From a virus: a stretch of 20,787 bases of DNA. Positions 3,312-20,787 of the stretch are shown in pieces (within the stretch, counting starts at the first letter, position 1; each line of letters opens with the position of its first letter). The notes under the pieces were generated by a model. It was not told the origin of the DNA and did not search any database. It was given only the letters and a program-made list of their open reading frames with translations. Position numbers and translations under genes: made by a program. The stretch is taken from the IMG/VR virus record IMGVR_UViG_3300032053_000653, positions 1-20,787 of that record, one strand, 5' to 3'.

Positions 3312-4028
3312 ATGTCTTCTGGCGCAGGTAAAAAAATAAGAAAGGAACTTGATGATACATTAAATGGATTATTAGAGGATGATAATCTTCTTGGGAGTGT
3401 AATGGATATTGAAAGTGATTTACCTGCAGTTAAACCTATACGGAAAACTAATTATGATGAATTAAAATCTAAAGCTGAAGATAAAGCTAAAAAAACAATT
3501 AATTCATTAATGAAATTTTATCTTACTGAAGATATTATTAATCAAGATGAATATGTTAAAGCTAGTTCAAAAATACATGAGATGACACTAGCCAGTTTAT
3601 TATTTCAATTAGAAACAGCTGAGCGTGCATTAGTAATATTATTAGAAACCATTGATGGTGGAGAACTTGCCCCAAGGATGTTTGAAGTATTAGGTACATT
3701 ACAAAAATCAATGCTTGATATTATTAAAAGTCAAACAATGTATTTAATGGCTGCAGAAGAAGGGGCTAAGAAACTTTCAAGAGATATTGAAGTTTATACT
3801 GGATTAAAAAGAACTACTATTCAGTCTAATACTAATACTAGTGGTAATATAACAAGAGGTACTAAATCTTTAATGCAAAGTATACAAACTGAAATTAAAG
3901 AAGAGATAGAAGCTGATAGTATAAATATAGTACAATTTAAAGATTTATCTATTAATGCACCATTAGATGAAGGCAATGATTATAGTGAAGATAATAGTGG
4001 TGAAGATTTATCTCAAGAAGAAGATTAA
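3312..4028 (+). CDS. terminase small subunit, T4 gp16-like
   Basis: This 238-residue, largely helical protein sits just upstream of the large terminase, apart from one inserted gene. Residues about 50-175 form the helical core: a segment with E-T-A-E-R-A-L-V-I-L-L-E-T-I, then E-L-A-P-R-M-F-E-V-L-G-T-L-Q-K-S, then a coiled-coil-like helix. That pattern (paired helices, then PRmfEVLgtL) resembles gp16-type small terminases, which form rings that regulate the gp17 motor. The C-terminal 40 residues are highly acidic (D-E-G-N-D-Y-S-E-D...E-E-D), plausible as a disordered tail. It is longer than T4 gp16 (164 residues). The assignment rests on motif pattern and gene order, not on a catalytic signature. 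Seven bases separate it from the next ATG. Confidence 0.65.
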   Translation: MSSGAGKKIRKELDDTLNGLLEDDNLLGSVMDIESDLPAVKPIRKTNYDELKSKAEDKAKKTINSLMKFYLTEDIINQDEYVKASSKIHEMTLASLLFQLETAERALVILLETIDGGELAPRMFEVLGTLQKSMLDIIKSQTMYLMAAEEGAKKLSRDIEVYTGLKRTTIQSNTNTSGNITRGTKSLMQSIQTEIKEEIEADSINIVQFKDLSINAPLDEGNDYSEDNSGEDLSQEED

Positions 4029-4035
4029 TATTTAT

Positions 4036-5229
4036 ATGAATAAATTTAAAACATACAGTGACTTAATATTAGAATCTAAAAAATCTATGTCATTACCAAA
4101 AACAGTATATATAATTAATAAACTTTTTAAAAAAGAAAATAAAAGTTTATACGTAGTCGGTGGTGCATGTAGAGATTTTTTACTGGGAATTAAACCGAAG
4201 GATTTTGATTTAGCAACTGATGCAAAGCCTGCTGAAGTTATATCTATATTAAATTCTGCTGGAATTAATAATTTTCCAAAGGGTGAGGCATTTGGTGTAA
4301 TTTCTGCAGTAACAGAAGATGGTGAATTTGAAATAACTACATTTAGGGCTGATTTAAGTAAAGGTCGCAGACCTGATGCTGTTGAATTTACAACAATAGA
4401 TAAAGATGTACTTAGACGCGATTTAACAATTAATGCTCTATTTTACGATATTGAACGTAAAGAAGTAGTTGACTTAGTTGGTGGAATTAAAGATTTAAAT
4501 GATAATATTATACGTACTGTAGGTATACCTACTGAGAGATTTAATGAAGACCCATTAAGAAAAATGAGAGCCCTTAGATTTAAAGCTAAATTAGGTGCAA
4601 AATTAGATCCTGCAACTAGAGATGCTTTAATAAAATCTGAATGGAGTAAAAATTTAATTCCATCGGAAAGTTTAGGTAGTATTTCTAAAGAACGAATACG
4701 CGATGAATTTTTAAAATCAATAGAATTTGCAAAGAATCCCATCTTATATTTTAGTTGGTTAGATGAATTTAGATTTTGGCCATTTATATTACCGTCACCT
4801 AATGGCAATAATATAGATACTTCATTTTTAAATAAATCTTATATTGATAGTAATAATGTTGATGTACAATTAGCAACGTTATTGAAAGGTGTAGATTTAC
4901 ATAAAAATACTAAGTATGGTTTAATGATTAAGAAGCAATATGCATATACTATAGAACAAATAAGAACTATAGAAACATTACATTTCTTAATGGTATTTAA
5001 ACCTACTGATATAATAGATATTAAAAAAGATTTAGGAATTTCTAAATTAAATATTAAAACATGTTTAGAATTTGCTAAATTTAATCAAATTGATAAAAAA
5101 TTAATTCAAAAACTTTTTGATTTTAATCTTAGTATCAAAGGAGATAACCCGGCATTAAATGGGCTTTCCGGTAAAGCGTATGGTGACAAGTTAAAACAAC
5201 TTGAAGCTGAAGCTTTTGAAAATTATTAA
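4036..5229 (+). CDS. class II tRNA nucleotidyltransferase / poly(A) polymerase-like enzyme with capsid-targeting-like N-terminus
   Basis: This 397-residue enzyme is predicted to add CCA or A residues to RNA 3' ends. The class II (bacterial Cca/PcnB) signature is complete: V-V-G-G-A-C-R-D-F-L-L-G at about 40-51, metal-binding D56-x-D58 in K-D-F-D-L-A-T, R-R-D at 127-129, and the nucleotide-selecting E-D-P-L-R-K-M-R-A at 171-179. A helical C-terminal half ends with G-L-S-G-K-A-Y-G. I chose the ATG at 4036; the frame is open to 3967 but that extension only overlaps the previous gene. From this start the protein begins MNKFKTYSDLILES, which matches the tag of the internal proteins at 17562-20058, with a gp21-like site after I-L-E. 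Its place between the terminase genes is unusual. CCA-adding versus poly(A) specificity cannot be decided by eye. Confidence 0.9.
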   Translation: MNKFKTYSDLILESKKSMSLPKTVYIINKLFKKENKSLYVVGGACRDFLLGIKPKDFDLATDAKPAEVISILNSAGINNFPKGEAFGVISAVTEDGEFEITTFRADLSKGRRPDAVEFTTIDKDVLRRDLTINALFYDIERKEVVDLVGGIKDLNDNIIRTVGIPTERFNEDPLRKMRALRFKAKLGAKLDPATRDALIKSEWSKNLIPSESLGSISKERIRDEFLKSIEFAKNPILYFSWLDEFRFWPFILPSPNGNNIDTSFLNKSYIDSNNVDVQLATLLKGVDLHKNTKYGLMIKKQYAYTIEQIRTIETLHFLMVFKPTDIIDIKKDLGISKLNIKTCLEFAKFNQIDKKLIQKLFDFNLSIKGDNPALNGLSGKAYGDKLKQLEAEAFENY

Positions 5230-5235
5230 TTATGT

Positions 5236-5817
5236 GTGAACGATTTTTTACCATCATCAAATCAATCTGAAACTGAAAGTACTGAACGCGTCGTTTGGAC
5301 TACTGAAAAGGTAGATCAATTAGTAAATGCTCTCAATGAGGGTATTAAAATTAAGGTAGCACTGCCTTACTATGAAGGTGATCCTAGCTGGCGTAAAGGC
5401 GATATAGTATTTGAATATACGGACTTTGAGATTGAAGAATTAAAAAAATGTGCTAGAGATATTACTTATTTTGCTGAGCATTATGCTACAGTAATGACAG
5501 ATGAGGGTCTACAGAGAATCAAATTGAGAGATTATCAATTTGATATGCTTAGGCATTTTGTAAATAATAGGTTTTCTGTTACACTCGCGAGTCGTCAAAT
5601 TGGGAAATGTCTGCGCAAAGATACTAAAATGATTGTTAAAATTAATTCTTTACATATTTTAAATAAACTGAACGCGTATTTTAAATCAAATTTTACGTAT
5701 GATTCCGAAATAGAAATATATTTCTTTGAGTTACATAATGTTTTGTTTTCAGATACATATTCATTTCTTGACAAATTTAAATTTAAATTATATAAGATTC
5801 TTACGTATATATCATGA
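5236..5817 (+). CDS. large terminase N-terminal part fused to N-intein (split gene)
   Basis: This is the first half of the packaging ATPase. Residues 1-124 are the N-extein, with an adenine/Q-motif-like region (L-R-D-Y-Q-F-D-M-L at about 96-104) and the start of the Walker A loop, A-S-R-Q-I-G-K, at 118-124. T4 gp17 has S-R-Q-L-G-K-T at this point. From Cys125 the sequence becomes intein-like (C-L-R-K-D-T-K-M-I-V-K-I, block A) and ends at a stop after residue 193. The rest of the ATPase lies in the frame starting at 5992. The start is GTG at 5236, six bases after the previous stop; no in-frame ATG precedes residue 86. A functional terminase requires trans-splicing. The stop overlaps the next ATG (ATGA). 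Confidence 0.9.
   Translation: MNDFLPSSNQSETESTERVVWTTEKVDQLVNALNEGIKIKVALPYYEGDPSWRKGDIVFEYTDFEIEELKKCARDITYFAEHYATVMTDEGLQRIKLRDYQFDMLRHFVNNRFSVTLASRQIGKCLRKDTKMIVKINSLHILNKLNAYFKSNFTYDSEIEIYFFELHNVLFSDTYSFLDKFKFKLYKILTYIS
5608..5814 (+). mobile_element. N-terminal half of a split intein (IntN)
   Basis: The intein begins at Cys125 of the upstream terminase fragment, within the P-loop between G-K and T. Block A is C-L-R-K-D-T-K-M-I-V-K-I, with the nucleophilic Cys1. Sixty-nine residues follow before the stop. Block B is absent here and appears in the downstream half, so the break lies between blocks A and B. This early break resembles the atypically split TerL inteins known from metagenomic phages (AceL-TerL type, from memory). 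Confidence 0.85.
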
Positions 5818-5999
5818 AGCTAGTGATATATTATCATAAAATAAAAAAGAAGTCTGCATTACAAATATGGGAATATGATAAACTAAAACATCAAACTGCG
5901 GCTGCACACGGATATAATGTCTTAACTATATGGGAAAGAGATTTCATGAAATTCCCAGAAGAGCAAATAAAAAAATGTATGGATTTTATAAATGAATAA
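5814..5999 (+). pseudogene. homing-endonuclease remnant in the intein fracture (Vsr-like/EDxHD type)
   Basis: This 61-codon frame lies between the two intein halves and overlaps both neighbours (4 bases upstream, 8 bases downstream). Residues about 19-61 (W-E-Y-D-K-L-K-H-Q, H-G-Y-N-V-L-T-I-W-E-R-D, then I-K-K-C-M-D-F-I-N) match the C-terminal end of Vsr-like phage homing endonucleases, which typically read 'GYkvLriWE.D' and end in a K-C-x-x-F-I helix. Such enzymes are usually 150 residues or more, and the catalytic N-terminal part and any zinc finger are missing here, so it is probably an inactive remnant. It may still be translated and could couple translation to the downstream half. A free-standing endonuclease between split-intein halves is the arrangement described as a fractured gene. 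Confidence 0.62.
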
Positions 6000-6441
6000 A
6001 TACATTAAGCAATACTTAAGTCTTTTAATATTAAACCTAATCCAATTAATAGAATTCTATCAATATAGAAATCTAAATTTAGATGAAAATGATATTAACA
6101 AGAAAATAATTTCATCTAAAGAAATAGATGGAATTTTAATATCTACTGATACGGGATTTAAACCTATATCTCATATACATGATACTCAACCATATAAATT
6201 ATGGAAAATACAAACGGAGTCTGGTTTATTTCTAGAAGGAGCTGACAATCATATAATATTTAAAGAAGGATTAATAGATACATTCATTAAAGATATTAAA
6301 TGCAATGATTATATCCACACAGTAAACGGATTAGAACGTATTACATCAGTTACTAATTATAATGTAAAGATTAGTATGTTTGATGTTACTGTTGCTGATG
6401 AGAATCATAGATTTTATTCTAATGGGATATTATCTCATAAT
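5992..6441 (+). mobile_element. C-terminal half of the split intein (IntC)
   Basis: Residues 47-150 carry the remaining splicing blocks. Block B is G-A-D-N-H-I-I-F with His87, and block F is M-F-D-V-T-V-A-D-E-N-H-R-F-Y with D131 and H139. Block G is G-I-L-S-H-N, with penultimate His149 and terminal Asn150, followed by Thr151 as the +1 nucleophile. All residues needed for splicing appear intact. No endonuclease domain is fused to this half. Confidence 0.88.
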
Positions 6442-7896
6442 ACGATTTGTAGCGCGATCTACATTGCATGGTATCTATTATTTAACTTTGATAAAAATGC
6501 TCTTATTTTAGCTAATAAAGGTACTACAACAAAGGAGATAATTGATAAAGCAAAAATTATATTACAACATGTACCATTCTTCATGAAACCAGGTATTAGG
6601 AAGAATGATGTATATGAAATGAAATTCGATAATGGCTGTAGGCTTGTTGGTCAAAATACAACAAGTAAGGCTGGTATAGGTTTTACTATACATTTATTAT
6701 TCTTAGATGAGTTTGCTCACGTTCATCATAGTTTTGTTGATAGTTTCTTTGAAAACGTTTATCCTACATTATCATCATCTAAAATATCACGTATTATTAT
6801 TACAAGTACTCCGAATGGCTATAATAAATTTTATGAAATTTATAAAGCTGCAATTGAAGGAGCAAGTGAATTTAAAGCATTTAAAGTTGATTGGTGGCAA
6901 GTACCCGGAAGAGATGAAGCCTGGAAAAAACGTGAAACTTCAAACTTGGGCAGTGAAGAAGCATTTAATAGACAATATGGAAATCAATTTCTAGCTTCAA
7001 GTAATTTATTATTACAGGGTTCAACGATTAAGAGATTACAGAAAGGTTCAATTAAATATGTACATCATCTATTTGAAGAATTTGAAAATATTGAAATTGA
7101 TACTGAACGTTATTTAGGATGGGATCCTAATTTTGATACAATGAATTGTACAGATCATGAAAAATATTTTGTATTTTCAGTAGACGTTGCTGATGGTTCA
7201 GGTGGTGATTATTCTGTTATTAATATATTTGAACTAATTAATATAAATGAAAAATATTTTAAATATATTACTACACCAAGTTCAATGAAAGATTTTTTTG
7301 GACTTAAACAGGTAGCAAGATTTTCTAGTAATGAACATAGTATTGAAGATTTTTCTAAAATACTTTATACACTATCGTGTGAATTATTCTATACTGAAAA
7401 TTTAAAAATAGTACTTGAATGGAATTATAATGGTGCATTAGTAATGAAACATTTACAAACTCTATTTCCTAATAAAAATAAGTTTGATGATGAAATGGTA
7501 TGTAGATTTAAACATAGGCATGATGCTAGAACATCTGAATATGGATTAAAAATTAAAAAGGATAATAAGGTTGTATTTTGTCAAAGTTTTAAGAAATTTA
7601 TAGAAACTAGAAGATTAATAGTTAATGATTCAAATACTATCCATGAATTAGAAACATTTGGTAAATTATCAACAGGTAGTTATGGTGGCCAATTGGGTAA
7701 TGATGACATGGCTATGACAGCTATAAATGTTACTGAATTTATGACAACTCCTGATTTTACTGATTATGTAGAAGAAATGCTAGATTTAATAGACTCTGAT
7801 ATTCATGATAGAATGGAGTCTATTTTAAATAAGGTAGCAGATGGTGATTCTAATCTTGATTTTGATATCTATGATTTAGTAAAACCTGATAAGTAA
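5992..7896 (+). CDS. C-intein fused to large terminase C-terminal part
   Basis: Residues 1-150 are the C-intein and 151-634 the C-extein. The extein starts T-I-C-S-A-I-Y and completes Walker A (G-K+T). Walker B is L-L-F-L-D-E at 235-240, with catalytic acidic residues D239/E240, and the coupling motif T-S-T-P-N-G is at 271-276. The RNase H-like nuclease domain has D398 in S-V-D-V-A-D-G, E476 in L-E-W-N-Y-N-G and D571-D572 in G-N-D-D-M-A-M, matching the three acidic positions of T4 gp17. Joining the exteins gives 124+484=608 residues, very close to gp17 (610). The protein packages DNA into proheads and cuts the concatemer. The first about 45 residues are not recognisable as intein core and may be linker. 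Confidence 0.93.
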   Translation: MNKYIKQYLSLLILNLIQLIEFYQYRNLNLDENDINKKIISSKEIDGILISTDTGFKPISHIHDTQPYKLWKIQTESGLFLEGADNHIIFKEGLIDTFIKDIKCNDYIHTVNGLERITSVTNYNVKISMFDVTVADENHRFYSNGILSHNTICSAIYIAWYLLFNFDKNALILANKGTTTKEIIDKAKIILQHVPFFMKPGIRKNDVYEMKFDNGCRLVGQNTTSKAGIGFTIHLLFLDEFAHVHHSFVDSFFENVYPTLSSSKISRIIITSTPNGYNKFYEIYKAAIEGASEFKAFKVDWWQVPGRDEAWKKRETSNLGSEEAFNRQYGNQFLASSNLLLQGSTIKRLQKGSIKYVHHLFEEFENIEIDTERYLGWDPNFDTMNCTDHEKYFVFSVDVADGSGGDYSVINIFELININEKYFKYITTPSSMKDFFGLKQVARFSSNEHSIEDFSKILYTLSCELFYTENLKIVLEWNYNGALVMKHLQTLFPNKNKFDDEMVCRFKHRHDARTSEYGLKIKKDNKVVFCQSFKKFIETRRLIVNDSNTIHELETFGKLSTGSYGGQLGNDDMAMTAINVTEFMTTPDFTDYVEEMLDLIDSDIHDRMESILNKVADGDSNLDFDIYDLVKPDK

Positions 7897-12725: not shown

Positions 12726-13148
12726 ATGATAATTTTCAAGACTACTTGCCTAATAAACGGAAAAATATTCGTTGGTCAAGCTACACTTGATAATCCTAAT
12801 TTTTATGGGTCTGGTAAATTTATATTAACTGATATTAGAAAATATGGTATACAAAACTTTCAGCGTGAAATATTAGAGGAATGTAATACTGCTGAACTTA
12901 CAAATAAAAGAGAATTATATTGGATTAAAAAATTAAACGCTGATAATGACAATATTGGCTATAATTCAATCGATAAGACTGATACTGATAAACTTGAAAA
13001 GAAAATTCAAACATTACTTACTAATATTGAATATAATGAATTATATGATATTATAATTCAGGAATCTATTAAAAATAAAAATAAACCTAAAACAGTATCA
13101 TCATATGTTAGAGATATTATTAACATTCATATTAATCAATCTAAATAA
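12726..13148 (+). CDS. GIY-YIG-type homing endonuclease, free-standing
   Basis: This 140-residue protein has the N-terminal GIY-YIG nuclease layout with substituted signature residues. GIY is I-I-F, and YIG is F-V-G in I-N-G-K-I-F-V-G-Q. It continues with N-F-Y-G-S-G-K-F-I, I-R-K-Y-G-I-Q-N-F-Q-R-E-I-L and R-E-L-Y-W-I-K-K, which supplies the conserved catalytic-type Glu, then I-G-Y-N-S. The C-terminal 50 residues are helical and lysine-rich, perhaps a minimal DNA-binding tail; no NUMOD repeats are evident. It is flanked by the tube terminator upstream and lies only 10 bases before the next gene, typical of intergenic homing genes in T4-like phages. Both aromatic substitutions are Tyr to Phe, so activity may be reduced or lost. 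Confidence 0.8.
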   Translation: MIIFKTTCLINGKIFVGQATLDNPNFYGSGKFILTDIRKYGIQNFQREILEECNTAELTNKRELYWIKKLNADNDNIGYNSIDKTDTDKLEKKIQTLLTNIEYNELYDIIIQESIKNKNKPKTVSSYVRDIINIHINQSK

Positions 13149-14471: not shown

Positions 14472-17400
14472 ATGTCTTTCAGTTTATTTAAAAATGCATT
14501 CGAAAAACTATCTGCTGAAAATCAGACTAAGATGGCCGACTCAATTGAAGATGTTGCCGAATATCTTCTTGATGAATCTAAAAATACTTTACTTATAGGA
14601 ATAAAAATAATTTCCGATAAGTTAAATGTTGTAACCGAACACCTTGCTGATATCTCTAAGAGTCTTAATGTAATGAGGGGTATTAAAACTGGTAAAGTAA
14701 ATAAGAAAGATTTAGAAGCAGTTTCTAAATCAGCTATTGGTATGGGTACTGGTATGAAAGTAATTGTTACTGCAATTGAATCATTTGCAAAATTACCAGA
14801 CGATGCTGCTGCTAATTTTGTAATTACAATAGAAAAAATATCTGAAGCTTTTAAGAAAGCTGAAAGTGTAATTAAAACTTTTGCAACACTAGGTCCTGCA
14901 TTAATGAAAATGGCCTTAGGTATATTATCATTTGGTTTAGCTTTAATACTTGCTGCACCTATATATGCAGTAGCTGCACTTGCAACGTTAATTATAATGC
15001 CAGTAATGTGGGCTTGGCTTACATTCTTTAAAGTAGTACTTAAGGGCTTTCCTGCTAAGAAAATTGAACAAGCAGGGGAAGCTTTAACTGTTATGGCCGG
15101 AGTTATATTCCTATTTGGCTTATCGTTGGCTGTTTCTGGTCCAATTTATTTATTAGCTGCTTTATCGACATTAATAGTAATGCCAGTAATGTGGGCTTGG
15201 CTTACATTCTTTAAATTAATATTAAAAAAATATCCAGCTAAGGAATTAAAAGAAACTGGCGAAGCTTTAATGGTTATGGCTGGTGCTATATTCTTATTTG
15301 GTTTATCATTAGCTGTTTCTGGATTTTTATATGTTGCTGCACTACAATTTTTACCAACTATAATGGGTATAGTATTAGGTTCACTTTTATTATTTCAATT
15401 AGTGTTAGGAAAAGATGGAGGTAAATCAATACAAGACGGTGCTAAGGGATTAATGTATATGGCTGGTGTTATATTACTATTTGGTGTAGCTTTATTGTTA
15501 GCAATACCTTTATATAATTATATTTTTAAACAAGAAGGTGCAATGAAAGGATTAGGTTTAATAGCAATGGTTATATTAGGAGCACTTGCAATATTTTATA
15601 TAATGAGTAAAGTATCAGGTAGTATAGTCGATGGGGCTAAAGGTTTAATGTATATGGCTGGTGTTATATTACTATTTGGTGTAGCTTTATTGTTAGCAAT
15701 ACCTTTATATAATTATATTTTTAAACAAGAAGGTGCAATGGAAGGATTAGGTTTAATTGCTGCTGTTATTCTAGGTGCCGTTGCTGTATTCTGGTTAATA
15801 AGTAAAATAGATGGTAGTATAAAGAAAGCTGCTGTCGGTTTAATGTTAATGGCATTAGATATAGTATTATTTGGTGTAGCAATATTTGTCTTTGGTAAAT
15901 TAATGGAACAGCTTGGAGATCCTTGGAAAACACTAGAATTATTAGGTGCAGCCATAGGTGGAGCTGGTTTAGCAATGTATTTAATTGGTAAAAAAGCTGG
16001 TATAATACTTAAGGGTGCTGGCGCTTTATTTGTTGCTACTATACCTTTATTTATTTTAACCTATGCATTAAAGAAATTTAAAGAAGCTGGAATAACATCA
16101 GATGACTTATTATTATTAGGTGCAGCTGTCGGTGGATTAGGTACTGCAATGTTTTTAGCAGGTAAAGGTGCATCAGAAATAGCACAAGGTTCAGGATCAA
16201 TGATTTTAGCTGGAGGTGCTTTAATAACTATTGCTTATGGTTTACAAAAATTTAAAGATGTAGGTTTAACATGGGCTGATGCCGGTTTAGCCGCATCAGT
16301 TATTGCTGGACTTGGTATTGAAATGGGAATTGCCGGTTTAGCTGCAATTCCTATAGCTGCCGGTGCAGCGGCCATGGGTTTAGCGGGTGGTGCATTATTA
16401 GCAATAGGATTTGGTTTAGCTAAATTCAAAGAAGTGAGTTGGAAAAAAGAAGATGGTCCAATGTTATCTGATTCACTGATTAGTTTACGTAATGGATTTT
16501 TAGGTATTAGTGCCGATGATGGATTTTTAGCTGCAATAAAAAACGTAGCTAAAATGACAGCAAGTATACCATTTTTAATAGCAGCTGCCGGAGCATATGC
16601 TATTATGGGTGCAGCTCTTGGTTCCATAGGTTCTGGACTTAAGAAATATAAACAAGTCAATTGGTCAGATAAAGATAGTTCATCATTTACTGTAAGTATT
16701 GGAGCTTTATCGAATACTTTTCAAACTATAGGTAAAGACCCTAAGAATGCAGCTGCAATTAGATTAGGCGTAAGTATGATGCCTATTATTGCAAACGGTA
16801 TTACTACATTATTTGCAGCTCTTAAAAAATCTGAAGCTTCAAAATTTGCATCACCGTTATATTTAATAGGAACTGGTATTGCAAGTCTATTTAGTGTATT
16901 TTCATCATCTGCAGATGTTCTAAAGAATGGTGATAAAATCGCTCAATCATTATCTAAATTATTAGGCAGTGTATTTGATACTGTTGCTAAACTAGGAGCT
17001 AAAGTTACTCCTAAATCACTTTCAGCGTTTACAACAATAACAAATGATTTTGTACTATTAGGTAAAACATCTACTCAATTAGAGAAAGTTGCAAAATCAA
17101 TGGAACGCATCTCATCTGCAATGGGTACATTTAAAACTAATATGAATGGTATAGATAAAGGTATACTTAAAGATACTAAGGGCCTATTTGAAGCAATGGC
17201 TATTATATCTAAATCAGGAAGTACTGAAGATTTAATAAAAAAATATAGTGAAGGATTAAAAGAAGTATTTAAACAACTTTCAGATTTATTAGCTGGACAT
17301 AGTACGGCTGTTACAAAAGCAGTAACTGCATCTACAGCTTCTAATCAGAATACAATGGAAACATTTGGTAAACAACTTAATGTGCCTTATGCACCTACTA

Positions 17401-17561: not shown

Positions 17562-17948
17562 ATGTATATTAAGTCATATTTTGAGTTTATTAATGAATCA
17601 AACAATAAGATTTATGACTCAAGGTTTATTATAGATTATATTAAAGATATTTCAGATAATCCAGAAACTGATGTTCCTGATTATTATTTTACTTTAATAA
17701 AGAAAGCTAACGCAAAATTTAAAAAAGAAACAATTGATATTAAAGACTTATTAAAGAAAGATAAATCTTTAAAGGAATATGTAGATAGCAAAGAAGACAG
17801 ATATGAAGATTCTGAGTATCAACCATATGATGATGAATTAGATAATCCTATTGTTATATTTAAAGGTGAAGTTATAGATGGTTATAATAGAACGTCAACA
17901 AAATTTCATAAAGGTGAAAAAGCTATTGAGGCATATGCTTCAATTTAA
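17562..17948 (+). CDS. putative internal head protein with capsid-targeting tag and ParB-like motif
   Basis: This is a 128-residue protein, the first of five tagged genes. It starts MYIKSYFEFINES, close to the T4 internal-protein tag MKTYQEFIAEA, with a predicted prohead-protease cut after I10-N-E12. The mature part is acidic and helical up to about residue 85 (D-L-L-K-K-D-K-S-L-K-E-Y). It then has D-N-P-I-V-I-F-K-G-E-V-I-D-G-Y-N-R-T-S, resembling the 'npivv..G.viDGyhR' signature of ParB/sulfiredoxin-fold N-terminal domains, and ends in K-A-I-E-A-Y-A-S-I. I infer a protein packaged in the head and possibly delivered to the host. The ParB-like match is a short motif and does not establish nuclease or nucleotide-binding activity. 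The gene begins 24 bases after the tape-measure stop. Confidence 0.78.
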   Translation: MYIKSYFEFINESNNKIYDSRFIIDYIKDISDNPETDVPDYYFTLIKKANAKFKKETIDIKDLLKKDKSLKEYVDSKEDRYEDSEYQPYDDELDNPIVIFKGEVIDGYNRTSTKFHKGEKAIEAYASI

Positions 17949-17962
17949 AAATAATTTAAATA

Positions 17963-18700
17963 ATGAAATACATTAAAACATTTGAGGATTTCGTAAATGA
18001 ATCTAAACTTCAGGAAGGTCATGATAGACCAGGAAAAGAATTTGATAGAGAATTTAAGGTTAACAATGGATTTACATTCCAAACAGTAGATAATGAAAAA
18101 AATGATTATGAAAAAGATGGTGATATAGAAAATATAGATGAATCAATTGATGAAGCCAAAGATTATTCAACATATGATGAACTTAAGAAATATCAAAAGC
18201 TTAAAGGTAAAACAGTAGAATATAATTTCGGTACTGAAAAGAAACCAAATATTGAAAAGATTAAAGTCGATCATATTCAAATATCTGATGCTGGTGGAAA
18301 TGCAAAAATATTCATCCAAGGCTATGGTAAAAGACTTAGTATGAATACGACAGTTAGTTTTAATGTTAAATCAATTGAAAATTTAGATAAGTTTATAAAG
18401 GAATCTTTTATACCATCATTTGATGAATTCTTAAATGAGGCGGCAGGTACATTAAAGGATAAATATGAAGCCTTAATTAAGAATTTAGAAAAAGCTAAAA
18501 TACCTTGTAAAGTTAAATTAATGAAAGACGAAATTGTAATAGAATGTGGCTGGGATTTTCCAGATAAAATATTCCATAAAGTTTCAGATGCTGCTGATAG
18601 TGCAAATTTAAAAGATTCTGATATTAGTGTATGTGCAGAGCAATCAGGAGGTACAGTATTAGATTCAAAAAGAATTAACGGTGGTCCAAAAAGATACTAA
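17963..18700 (+). CDS. putative internal head protein, multi-site (polyprotein-like)
   Basis: This 245-residue protein starts with the tag MKYIKTFEDFVNES, with a predicted cut after E13. More [I/L]-x-E sites follow: I-D-E60|S, I-D-E64|A and, most strikingly, F-I-P-S-F-D-E-F-L-N-E159|A, an internal near-copy of the tag. Between the sites lie a beta-rich domain (about 65-145, with K-G-K-T-V-E-Y-N-F-G and A-K-I-F-I-Q-G-Y-G) and a C-terminal alpha/beta domain (160-245, with I-P-C-K-V-K-L-M-K-D-E-I-V-I-E-C-G). This suggests two mature proteins from one precursor. The function of the domains is not recognised. The gene lies 14 bases after the preceding stop with an A/T-only leader. Confidence 0.8.
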   Translation: MKYIKTFEDFVNESKLQEGHDRPGKEFDREFKVNNGFTFQTVDNEKNDYEKDGDIENIDESIDEAKDYSTYDELKKYQKLKGKTVEYNFGTEKKPNIEKIKVDHIQISDAGGNAKIFIQGYGKRLSMNTTVSFNVKSIENLDKFIKESFIPSFDEFLNEAAGTLKDKYEALIKNLEKAKIPCKVKLMKDEIVIECGWDFPDKIFHKVSDAADSANLKDSDISVCAEQSGGTVLDSKRINGGPKRY

Positions 18701-18717
18701 AAAATATATATATAGCA

Positions 18718-18933
18718 ATGGAAAAAATCAAATCATTCGGAGATTTCTTAAATGAAAATAAAGATCCCAATTATTTAGAATGGTTAACTAATAATTTTAA
18801 AAAGAATAAAGAATTCGTGAAAATCATGAAAGATAGTAAGCTTTCAAATGAAGAATATAAAACTATTTATTATGCTATACAAGATGCAATAAGCAGTTCC
18901 AGATCAGTTTCAAATCCAGGACATGGTTGGTAA
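18718..18933 (+). CDS. small tagged putative internal head protein (71 aa)
   Basis: This is the smallest member of the cassette. It begins MEKIKSFGDFLNEN, with a predicted cut after L11-N-E13. The remaining 58 residues are helical and basic, including Y-L-E-W-L-T-N-N-F-K-K-N-K and a second helix around Y-K-T-I-Y-Y-A-I-Q-D-A-I, and end S-N-P-G-H-G-W. A mature product near 6-7 kDa would be comparable with small T4 internal proteins. There is no signal peptide, membrane segment or known catalytic motif. It stands 17 bases after the previous gene and 12 before the next, so all five tagged genes are probably co-transcribed. Function unknown. Confidence 0.75.
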   Translation: MEKIKSFGDFLNENKDPNYLEWLTNNFKKNKEFVKIMKDSKLSNEEYKTIYYAIQDAISSSRSVSNPGHGW

Positions 18934-18945
18934 TAAATAATTATA

Positions 18946-19518
18946 ATGAGATATATTAAAACATTCGAGCAATTCATTAATGAGGGTGCTAAATCATTAG
19001 AGGACGAATCTGCACTTACTAGAAAAGTTCAAAATAAATTAGAACCTTTAGCTATTAAAGAAATGGATAAAGATGATAGATTTAAAGATACGGATGATAA
19101 TGAACTAATTAATATGCTTCATGATGAAATGTTTCCTGATGTATTTGAAGCATATCCTGATAGAATAAAAAAGTTTCTTTCTGATTCAAATTATAGAAAG
19201 AAAATATATGATGGTATCTATAAAGATTTTATATCAGAAAGTATTATTACTGAAAGTAATGTAGCTAATAAAATACCTAAAGATCTTGTTAAAAAAGACA
19301 AGTATAAAAAAGGTGATACTATTTACTATAAAGTATATTTTCCACCAAGCGGAATGATGGCATCGAGTAAAGGTGAAATGAGTAAGTCTACTTATGTTGG
19401 TAGAATTTCAAAAGTTTTAAAACATAAAGGCCCAGAACTATCAAGCGGTCCAATACAAAAGTATGAAGTTGGCTATGATACAATTGCACATTCTTATATT
19501 TTAGGTACTGAAAAATAA
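18946..19518 (+). CDS. putative internal head protein with tag and second cleavage motif
   Basis: This 190-residue protein starts MRYIKTFEQFINEG, with a predicted cut after I11-N-E13. Residues 14-92 are acidic and helical (D-E-S-A-L-T-R-K-V-Q-N-K-L, then N-M-L-H-D-E-M-F-P-D-V-F). A second tag-like stretch, Y-K-D-F-I-S-E98|S followed by I-I-T-E103|S, separates this from a C-terminal beta-rich domain (K-K-G-D-T-I-Y-Y-K-V-Y-F-P-P, then Y-V-G-R-I-S-K-V-L, Y-E-V-G-Y-D) that looks like a small SH3/KOW-type barrel. Proteolysis would release two modules. No family is recognised for either. It belongs to the co-directional tagged cassette, with 12 bases to each neighbour. Confidence 0.8.
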   Translation: MRYIKTFEQFINEGAKSLEDESALTRKVQNKLEPLAIKEMDKDDRFKDTDDNELINMLHDEMFPDVFEAYPDRIKKFLSDSNYRKKIYDGIYKDFISESIITESNVANKIPKDLVKKDKYKKGDTIYYKVYFPPSGMMASSKGEMSKSTYVGRISKVLKHKGPELSSGPIQKYEVGYDTIAHSYILGTEK

Positions 19519-19530
19519 AAAAATAATAAA

Positions 19531-20058
19531 ATGAAATACATTAAAAACTTTGAAGATTTTTTAAATGAATCTGAAAACATAAATGAATCTAATCTAGATT
19601 TAATACAATATGTAAAAAAATCTGCAGCCAAAGTTCATTCACATGGTGGTAATGGAGAAAATATTTTAGGATATGGTCTTCAAGATTTAGCAAGACATTT
19701 AGAAGCATACTATACAGATGGTCGTATCTATGATGATAAGACAATTAAATTATTTGAACAGTTGGTAGATTCAATGTCAAGTAATGAAATTGATAATAAT
19801 CAAGTTGATGAATCTGTAGCTGAAGAATTAAATGAAAGTTCAGTTACACAACTTGAAAAATATGTAAATACTACTAGTAAAAATCCAAAAGTTAATTTAG
19901 TTACATTTGATGAATTATTAATACCGCTTGCGCAGCATTTAGATTCATATACAGGTGAATCAATGGGTGATTTAGAATATCCAAAGGAAGTATTAAATAC
20001 ATTTAAGAAGCTTACTGATGGAATGGCAAAAGCACACATTGATGGATTTAATTTATAA
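19531..20058 (+). CDS. putative internal head protein with duplicated domain
   Basis: This 175-residue protein starts MKYIKNFEDFLNES, with predicted cuts after L11-N-E13 and I17-N-E19. It is built from two related halves. Residues about 21-87 (L-I-Q-Y-V-K-K, L-A-R-H-L-E-A-Y-Y-T-D-G, I-K-L-F-E-Q-L-V-D-S-M) align with 106-172 (L-E-K-Y-V-N, L-A-Q-H-L-D-S-Y-T-G-E, L-N-T-F-K-K-L-T-D-G-M). The second half is preceded by V-D-E94|S and L-N-E102|S. So the duplication includes the cleavage motif, and processing would yield two similar helical domains. No family is recognised. It is the last gene before the largely non-coding right end. Confidence 0.8.
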   Translation: MKYIKNFEDFLNESENINESNLDLIQYVKKSAAKVHSHGGNGENILGYGLQDLARHLEAYYTDGRIYDDKTIKLFEQLVDSMSSNEIDNNQVDESVAEELNESSVTQLEKYVNTTSKNPKVNLVTFDELLIPLAQHLDSYTGESMGDLEYPKEVLNTFKKLTDGMAKAHIDGFNL

Positions 20059-20127: not shown

Positions 20128-20239
20128 CAACTTAGATGTCTAGGTTAAGTTATATTTTTAAAAAATGGGAACTTTTTTTCGGTCTAATTTGATTTTATTT
20201 TAAAAATACCCCAATAAAAACTTTTAAATATTGAAACTT

Positions 20240-20268
20240 TTTAGTACATTTACTCTATAACAACAAAT
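20240..20268 (+). promoter_or_regulatory. promoter-like repeat, copy B
   Basis: TTTAGTACATTT is followed by CTATAACAACAAAT (20255-20268), matching copy A. It lies 16 bases before the ATG of a 35-codon frame and about 150 bases before a strong terminator, so it may drive a short transcript. Confidence 0.5.
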
Positions 20269-20455: not shown

Positions 20456-20484
20456 GTTCATTGAAATTTTAAAATTAATTATAA

Positions 20485-20567
20485 GGAAGGTACCGTCAAG
20501 GTGGCAAACTGGGCTTGAACCCCAGGGTTACGGGCAACTGTAAGGGTTTCGATTACTCTATCTTCCT
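20485..20567 (+). tRNA. tRNA-Ser (anticodon TGA)
   Basis: The acceptor stem GGAAGGT/ATCTTCC has seven pairs including one G-T. The anticodon arm CTGGG-CTTGAAC-CCCAG has anticodon TGA at 20516-20518. A long variable arm is present (TTAC...GTAA), as expected for serine tRNA, and the T-arm AGGGT-TTCGATT-ACTCT has a normal T-loop. The D-arm is weak (only C-C/G-G pairs evident) and position 8 is A. CCA is not encoded: the stem is followed by T-C-T-A. Confidence 0.72.
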
Positions 20568-20572
20568 CTAAT

Positions 20573-20644
20573 GGGTATTTAAGCATTAAGGTGATGTGCG
20601 AAACTGTGAATTTCGAGAAGACGGGCCAGTACCGTCATTTACCC
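20573..20644 (+). tRNA. tRNA-His-like gene (anticodon GTG), non-canonical
   Basis: The anticodon arm CGAAA-CTGTGAA-TTTCG is perfect, with GTG at 20606-20608. The D-arm GCAT/ATGT contains the G-G of the D-loop, and the T-stem GACGG/CCGTC is perfect. An extra 5' G (20573) faces C73 (20644), the tRNA-His identity pair. The T-loop GCCAGTA lacks the usual TTC-A, and the acceptor stem has two T-T mismatches. CCA is not encoded. It lies five bases after the serine tRNA. It may be a divergent or decayed tRNA. Confidence 0.5.
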
Positions 20645-20787
20645 CAAAAAATAAAATTTAAAATATGAAAAAGGAATTTGATATGTATTGAGGTCTACTA
20701 TTCATACACAAAAAGTAAATAAATGGATGAAGAAACATATGCCCGAATATTATTCAGATATCTGTTATAAAAGAAATAGTGGAGTAT

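Follow-up and report, generated by a model that had tools for sequence, protein, structure and literature searches.

A short N-terminal tag shared by unrelated proteins points to a probable T4-like head cargo system in a lineage of large phages

Introduction

Phage proteins that are injected into the host are normally known only through virion proteomics of cultured phages. The DNA studied here comprises positions 1 to 20,787 of the IMG/VR virus record IMGVR_UViG_3300032053_000653 (20,787 nt, hereafter the window) and represents a fragment (20.8 kb) of a contractile phage of the T4 type, with genes for terminase, sheath and tube. Among its relatives are LR756500 (462 kb), the 77-kb contig G001, Lak phages, PAU, Tenacibaculum phages and the Chryseobacterium phage MA9V-1, and the closest of all is the contig L009. 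Between positions 17562 and 20058, the window carries a cassette of five consecutive open reading frames (ORFs) whose products share the start M-x-x-I-K-x-[FY]-x-x-F-[LIV]-N-E and then diverge. A sequence-only reading of the window had likened this start to the capsid-targeting tag of the T4 internal proteins and had proposed a locus of exchangeable, ejected proteins, likely anti-defence or takeover factors. In this study, the tag was followed through related phage genomes, and its extent, its genomic surroundings and the proteins behind it were compared with those known from T4.

The tagged cassette

All five ORFs were found where the sequence-only reading had placed them (Table 1). The one-residue-shorter form of the tag that it had mentioned is that of protein 1, MYIKSYFEFINE, with Y instead of F at position 7. 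Its statement that the bodies are unrelated holds as well, as the five show no match to each other and match almost nothing known. A tblastn search with two of the five bodies gave no convincing match. For protein 5, a tagged homologue with 34% identity overall is encoded at L119:7750-8298. An apparent internal repeat in the same protein is unsupported by BLAST (E 2.2). Matches from PADLOC were all weak and were left unused.

A scan of the window with a looser pattern detected the tag on six of the 20 ORFs, compared with 0.1 expected from shuffled N-termini. The count of five given before is thus correct for the cassette but overlooked a sixth, looser candidate outside this interval, an N-terminal extension of a CCA-tRNA nucleotidyltransferase that reads MNKFKTYSDLILE↓SKK from the ATG at position 4036. 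The homologue in L009 carries a similar extension, MKLKNISEFKLVNE↓AQT, followed by a body of approximately 50% identity.

Table 1. Tagged genes, predicted cut sites and adjoining features of the window (↓, predicted cut; aa, amino acids)
Feature	Position	Strand	Remarks
CCA-tRNA nucleotidyltransferase with tag-like N-terminal extension	4036..5229	+	MNKFKTYSDLILE↓S; internal ATG of ORF 3967-5229; Pfam PolyA_pol, E 6e-36
Untagged protein, tape-measure-like, 1021 aa	14472..17537	+	Judged from position and sequence; immediately precedes the cassette; homologue in L009
Tagged protein 1, 128 aa	17562..17948	+	Tag MYIKSYFEFINE↓S at 17562-17597; body without family match
Tagged protein 2, 245 aa	17963..18700	+	Tag MKYIKTFEDFVNE↓S at 17963-18001
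Internal tag remnant in protein 2, residues 149-159	18407..18439	+	FIPSFDEFLNE↓A; predicted second cut site
Tagged protein 3, 71 aa	18718..18933	+	Tag MEKIKSFGDFLNE↓N at 18718-18756
Tagged protein 4, 190 aa	18946..19518	+	Tag MRYIKTFEQFINE↓G at 18946-18984
Predicted internal cut sites in protein 4, residues 96-103	19231..19254	+	ISE↓S and ITE↓S; between its two domains
Tagged protein 5, 175 aa	19531..20058	+	Tag MKYIKNFEDFLNE↓S at 19531-19569, then second site INE↓S (19579-19587)
Predicted internal cut site in protein 5	19828..19836	+	LNE↓S; between its two domains

Extent and conservation of the tag

Scans of close relatives with single proteins led to few loci, and hence the tag itself was used as a search pattern. 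As a degenerate DNA pattern it matched at least 120 stretches in IMG/VR, and 115 tagged starts from 80 loci were parsed among the matches listed. A control pattern with the same codons in scrambled order matched one stretch in the whole collection. In 257 Gb of bacterial and archaeal genomes (85,000 genomes) only four matches were obtained, all of them in metagenome-assembled genomes. A looser pattern matched 30 of 31 related records with up to 18 matches per genome, and its backwards control gave none. Tag-like matches in PAU (not at an annotated gene start), pT24 and Lak are probably due to chance and were set aside.

A total of 236 unique tagged proteins, taken from all loci collected up to this point, form 150 body clusters, and 115 of the clusters are singletons. 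An alignment of 150 tagged proteins, nearly all of them one per body cluster, gives the consensus MKHIKLFExFxNE with nothing conserved beyond it. Among 142 representatives, the information content is 2-5 bits per residue within the tag and about 0.2 beyond residue 14. The residue that follows the predicted cut (P1′), at position 14, was left unconstrained by the search pattern and is A, S or G in 90 of the 142. Since the codons of the tag vary freely, selection acts on the peptide. The tags are more similar within a locus (0.63) than between loci (0.49), a difference reached in none of 500 permutations and expected if every phage has tags suited to its particular core and protease. Chance is excluded as an explanation of the shared tag.

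Correspondence with T4 and the head loci of relatives

In the tag of the T4 internal proteins, residues 4 and 7 direct targeting and residues 8 and 10 direct processing, and the prohead protease gp21 cuts after L/I-x-E (PMC9026906). The relaxed tag pattern finds T4 ipII and ipIII, which start with MKTYQEFIAE↓A. This start can be matched position for position with MKYIKTFEDFVNE of protein 2, both being tags of at most 20 residues with aromatic residues three apart followed by hydrophobic-x-E, and the four key residues of T4 align with F7, F10, [LIV]11 and E13 of the new tag.

Genes for an S77 prohead protease and for gp23 are present in LR756500, G001 and PTm1. The protease was detected in 17 of 28 tagged contigs and in 14 of the 16 with a length of at least 140 kb. 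Of the 16 head loci read in relatives, 11 (G001, G004, G009, G010, G011, G013, G017, G019, G022, G026 and G029, with the near-identical G019 and G026 both counted) have the tag on the gene between portal and S77 protease, which is the position of T4 gene 67. The protein encoded there has a conserved body and, as a rule, a strongly acidic C-terminus, and the E of the tag is kept despite insertions that lengthen the tag. In the cultured phage MA9V-1, MKTFTCFINE↓A starts a protein located between genes annotated by others as “capsid assembly protein” and “prohead core protein serine protease”; its body is unlike those of the other head loci. MA9V-1 has the tagged genes MA9V1_146, MA9V1_150 and MA9V1_207, whose predicted mature products, cut behind FINE or FVNE, would start with ANSFN, AKRNE and SITNY. 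Furthermore, the N-terminus of gp23 in relatives carries LINE↓AEI. Taken together, the match to ipII and ipIII, the tag at the gene 67 position and the A, S or G after E strongly support, by comparative genomics, the proposed parallel to T4 capsid targeting.

Two further observations concern these head genes. The S77 protease ORFs (L007 28725-30623, corresponding to LR756500 226725-228623, and L150-L166) encode about 600-750 residues with a long extension C-terminal to the S77 domain, and possibly represent a protease fused to a scaffold. In T4 itself, the hypothetical 54-residue product of gene 61.1 (L201; T4 18966-19130, minus strand) starts with the capsid-targeting-like MKTFKEFIKE↓D and is possibly an unrecognised head-cargo protein, or a chance likeness.

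Internal cut sites and fusions

The cut motif at the N-termini was recognised before, whereas its internal copies in proteins 2, 4 and 5 were overlooked. Within the tagged bodies, [LIV]NE[ASG] was observed 27 times compared with 3.6 in shuffled sequences, and reversed and E-to-Q/D controls were flat. The C-terminal part of protein 2 is homologous to the free-standing tagged proteins L131:4648-4968 and L108:209-532, the N-terminal tags of which align with the internal FDEFLNE, which suggests that protein 2 arose by fusion of two tagged proteins. A tagged protein from a cassette of 13 genes (L068:10646-11293) has a C-terminal domain homologous to that of protein 4 (phmmer E 2.8e-16); the N-terminal domains of the two differ, and the homologue carries VNE↓G near the domain boundary (residue 80). 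Of protein 5, the C-terminal domain without the rest recurs inside another protein in L032 (E 4.8e-24). A 507-residue protein in L060 contains four VNE↓[AG] sites, mostly in the context ESVNE. The internal copies of the site add to the support for a T4-type targeting and cleavage tag. We predict that some tagged proteins are processed at internal sites in the manner of polyproteins.

Tagged bodies in relatives

The families recognised among tagged bodies in relatives are diverse and include RimK ATP-grasp, cytidylyltransferase, cyclic-phosphate receiver, ART-PolyVal, zeta toxin/AAA kinase and leucine-rich repeat proteins as well as Tad3 and Acb1-like proteins. Tad3 (PF25185, anti-Thoeris) was found in four of 47 contigs. 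At three of these loci (L190, L191 and L192) it has the tag, or a variant one step removed from it (FLNES, FLAES, FLTDS), at its start, shows an internal [IL]NE↓[GS] immediately before the Tad3 domain, and scores 57-80 bits at a Pfam cut-off of 27; the fourth homologue (L189, G028) bears no tag. Near Tad3 and on the same strand, each of the three loci encodes a tagged 2H protein that resembles Acb1 and in which two HxT motifs are visible, the relatives with both tagged homologues close together being G009, G024 and G059. Acb1 (PF23474), which acts against the cyclic-oligonucleotide-based antiphage signaling system (CBASS), was matched with 31.3 bits in L122 and with 27.3 in L148, and because these scores are barely above the cut-off of 27, the Acb1-like protein may be another 2H phosphoesterase. 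The two tagged proteins are candidates for a virion-delivered counter-defence pair. The anti-defence role that the sequence-only reading had proposed is thereby backed by the relatives only; none of the five cassette proteins matches an anti-defence family.

Tagged nucleotidylyltransferases with the motif GRFQP..H.GH are encoded at L039:7917-8522 (Pfam CTP_transf_like), at L093:6396-6992 and in L094 from position 7470. These are possible virion-delivered enzymes of NAD synthesis or repair.

Exchangeability of the cassette and neighbouring genes

The exchangeable nature of the locus, as proposed before, is supported by the 150 body clusters behind one tag and by L009, which has no tagged gene at the same place. 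There, one short untagged ORF separates the tape-measure-like gene from a 46-bp promoter-like element (15323-15368) that is 87% identical to its counterpart downstream of the cassette (window 20216-20261). Since the contig L009 ends at this point and the element resembles a promoter, the absence of the cassette is suggestive only. Weaker matches to the sequence near the element of the window occur in LR756500, where tagged genes are located elsewhere in the tail module.

In addition, some features outside the cassette were observed. The large terminase gene of the window (5236-7896) is apparently split over separate ORFs by an intein-like insertion at the Walker A motif, with the junctions SRQIGK/CLRKDT and GILSHN/TICSAI and a small endonuclease-like ORF (5814-5999) between the parts. 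It looks like a split-intein “fractured gene”, and a similar C-terminal terminase part is present in LR756500 (L006:45736-47622). A short ORF between tube and baseplate genes (12726-13148) resembles a GIY-YIG homing endonuclease by eye. Downstream of the cassette, the non-coding region 20478-20650 is G+C-rich within an A+T-rich genome and folds into several stems with a z-score of -0.05; neither an Rfam match nor a tRNA call was obtained for it. A match to 5.8S rRNA was below the Rfam cut-off and is attributed to chance.

Discussion

The tagged proteins are very probably head cargo, targeted to the core, cut by the S77 protease and ejected, with bodies that would most likely serve early takeover or counter-defence. 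For the five window bodies we infer packaging, cleavage, ejection and functions along the following lines. The five proteins, and probably the tRNA nucleotidyltransferase as well, would belong to the cargo of the phage head. During head assembly, their first 12-13 residues would bind the scaffolding core of the prohead and act as a capsid-targeting sequence. The gp21-type S77 prohead protease would then cut after the E of F-[LIV]-N-E↓[S/A/G/N], so that the propeptide leaves and the mature body, retained together with the DNA, passes into the host upon infection. At the internal F-x-x-F-L-N-E or [LIV]-x-E↓S sites of proteins 2, 4 and 5, the same protease may free two products per precursor. The tag would be a module, joined to many unrelated proteins in exchangeable cassettes by the large T4-like phages of this group, and the likeliest role of the bodies would be early host takeover or counter-defence ahead of phage gene expression.

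Several results weigh against this interpretation. The five window bodies gave no significant match to Pfam or PHROGs, and none fits an anti-defence or takeover family; AlphaFold models of proteins 2 and 5 reached a predicted local distance difference test score of 45 and 37, respectively, and were too poor to be used. No gene for S77 or gp23 was seen in the window, which is a fragment without the head genes. In relatives, five of the 16 head loci (G005, G008, G012, G016 and G025) lack a canonical tagged gene at the place between portal and protease, and PTm1 gave no match to the tag pattern. The new tag has N at P2 and sometimes V at P3, compared with L/I-x-E in T4. The excess of [LIV]NE[ASG] is not exclusive to tagged proteins, as a weaker one, 94 against 27, was seen in the ORFs without tag at these loci.

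An assembly tag for structural head proteins would account for packing and cleavage equally, with the proteins serving core building or DNA condensation rather than being ejected as effectors. Such a role is in line with the tag on the core protein at the gene 67 position, with the part of T4 IPIII in head morphogenesis (PMC9026906) and with the lack of an effector match among the five window bodies. We consider it unlikely, as 150 unrelated body clusters and up to 18 pattern matches per genome go far beyond the needs of a core, homologues of enzymes and immune antagonists occur among the tagged bodies, and L009 shows no tagged gene at the position of the cassette.

Explanations unconnected with the head are less probable still. 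A signal for localisation or translation, for instance one for import into a compartment built by the phage, a membrane anchor or an enhancer of translation, would agree with the head loci that have no tagged gene at the expected place. The tag contains no hydrophobic stretch, and a reading as signal peptide was rejected; moreover, conservation at the protein level with free synonymous choice, the end at E followed by a small residue, the match to T4 ipII and ipIII, the adjacency to the prohead protease and the recurrence as internal sites make a signal of this kind very improbable. Leftover homology from a recent tandem duplication with rapidly diverging bodies was likewise rejected and has hardly any probability left. 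It fits the tandem arrangement of the cassettes and the greater likeness of tags within than between loci, and is contradicted by conservation that ends sharply at residue 14 in 142 representatives, by the same tag on unrelated folds (RimK, cytidylyltransferase, Tad3, 2H phosphoesterase and receiver domain) and by homologous bodies with and without tag (Tad3 in L190-L192 vs L189).

If the tagged proteins are head cargo as proposed, a more far-reaching picture can be drawn, which we put forward tentatively and rate a little below an even chance: each head would deliver many effectors behind one portable tag, some of them as polyproteins split by the prohead protease, and the cargo would include Tad3 and Acb1-like blockers of nucleotide-signalling immunity that act before phage gene expression. 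A virion-delivered protein would then meet the alarm signals of the host before any phage gene is expressed. In practical terms, a 13-residue tag that is rare in bacterial genomes may render the predicted injected set of uncultured huge phages readable from sequence alone. The tagged set, with its anti-Thoeris and anti-CBASS homologues and many families of unknown function, provides a candidate list for counter-defence screens. The T4 capsid-targeting principle, known from a few T-even internal proteins, would extend to a large export code used across the lineage, possibly including polyproteins.

The principle of exchangeable internal proteins that bear a tag is already known from T-even phages, where exchangeable ip genes were recognised by their signal sequence (Repoila et al. 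1994, as cited in PMC12373910 and PMC3012670). T4 Ip1, Ip2 and Ip3 block GmrSD enzymes (PMC12373910; PMC3012670). Judging by open-licence papers, novelty lies in the lineage and the lineage-wide scale, in the tag on the protein at the gene 67 position, in the internal sites with the fusion, and in the tagged anti-Thoeris and anti-CBASS homologues. In the same literature we found no earlier description of such a lineage-wide tag system and no virion proteome of a tagged phage, the record for MA9V-1 being a gel from sodium dodecyl sulfate polyacrylamide gel electrophoresis only.

The likeness to T4 IPI, IPII and IPIII comprises a short N-terminal tag, aromatic residues three apart, F-[I/L/V]-x-E at the cut, and variable bodies behind a tag that alone is conserved. 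As in T4, an S77 prohead protease and an acidic core protein of the gene 67 type lie side by side, here in relatives of the window. Unlike the T4 internal proteins, the tag is usually three residues longer (M-x-x-I-K), with N usual at P2 and V allowed at P3. In contrast to T4, a genome may contain up to 18 pattern matches, scattered and in cassettes of 5-13 genes, internal sites and tag fusions occur, the core protein at the gene 67 position bears the same tag as the cargo, and the phages concerned are not T-even phages. T4 Alt, a packaged ADP-ribosyltransferase, and gp67 and gp68 are packaged with the core and cut by gp21 at L/I-x-E (PMC9026906); one tagged body in relatives matches ART-PolyVal, whereas the window proteins show no ADP-ribosyltransferase match. 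With regard to Tad3 and Acb1, tagged homologues were found in G009, G024 and G059, with no match to either family among the five window proteins. The head ejection proteins of phiKZ and SPN3US offer a further parallel, as a large phage packs many proteins and a gp21-type protease (gp175/gp245) cuts after a glutamate motif (PMC5694885, PMC9026906), cleavage being predicted in our case. In those phages, however, the propeptides are often longer than 100 residues and cleavage follows A-x-E or S-x-E, in contrast to the 12-13-residue tag ending in N-E described here.

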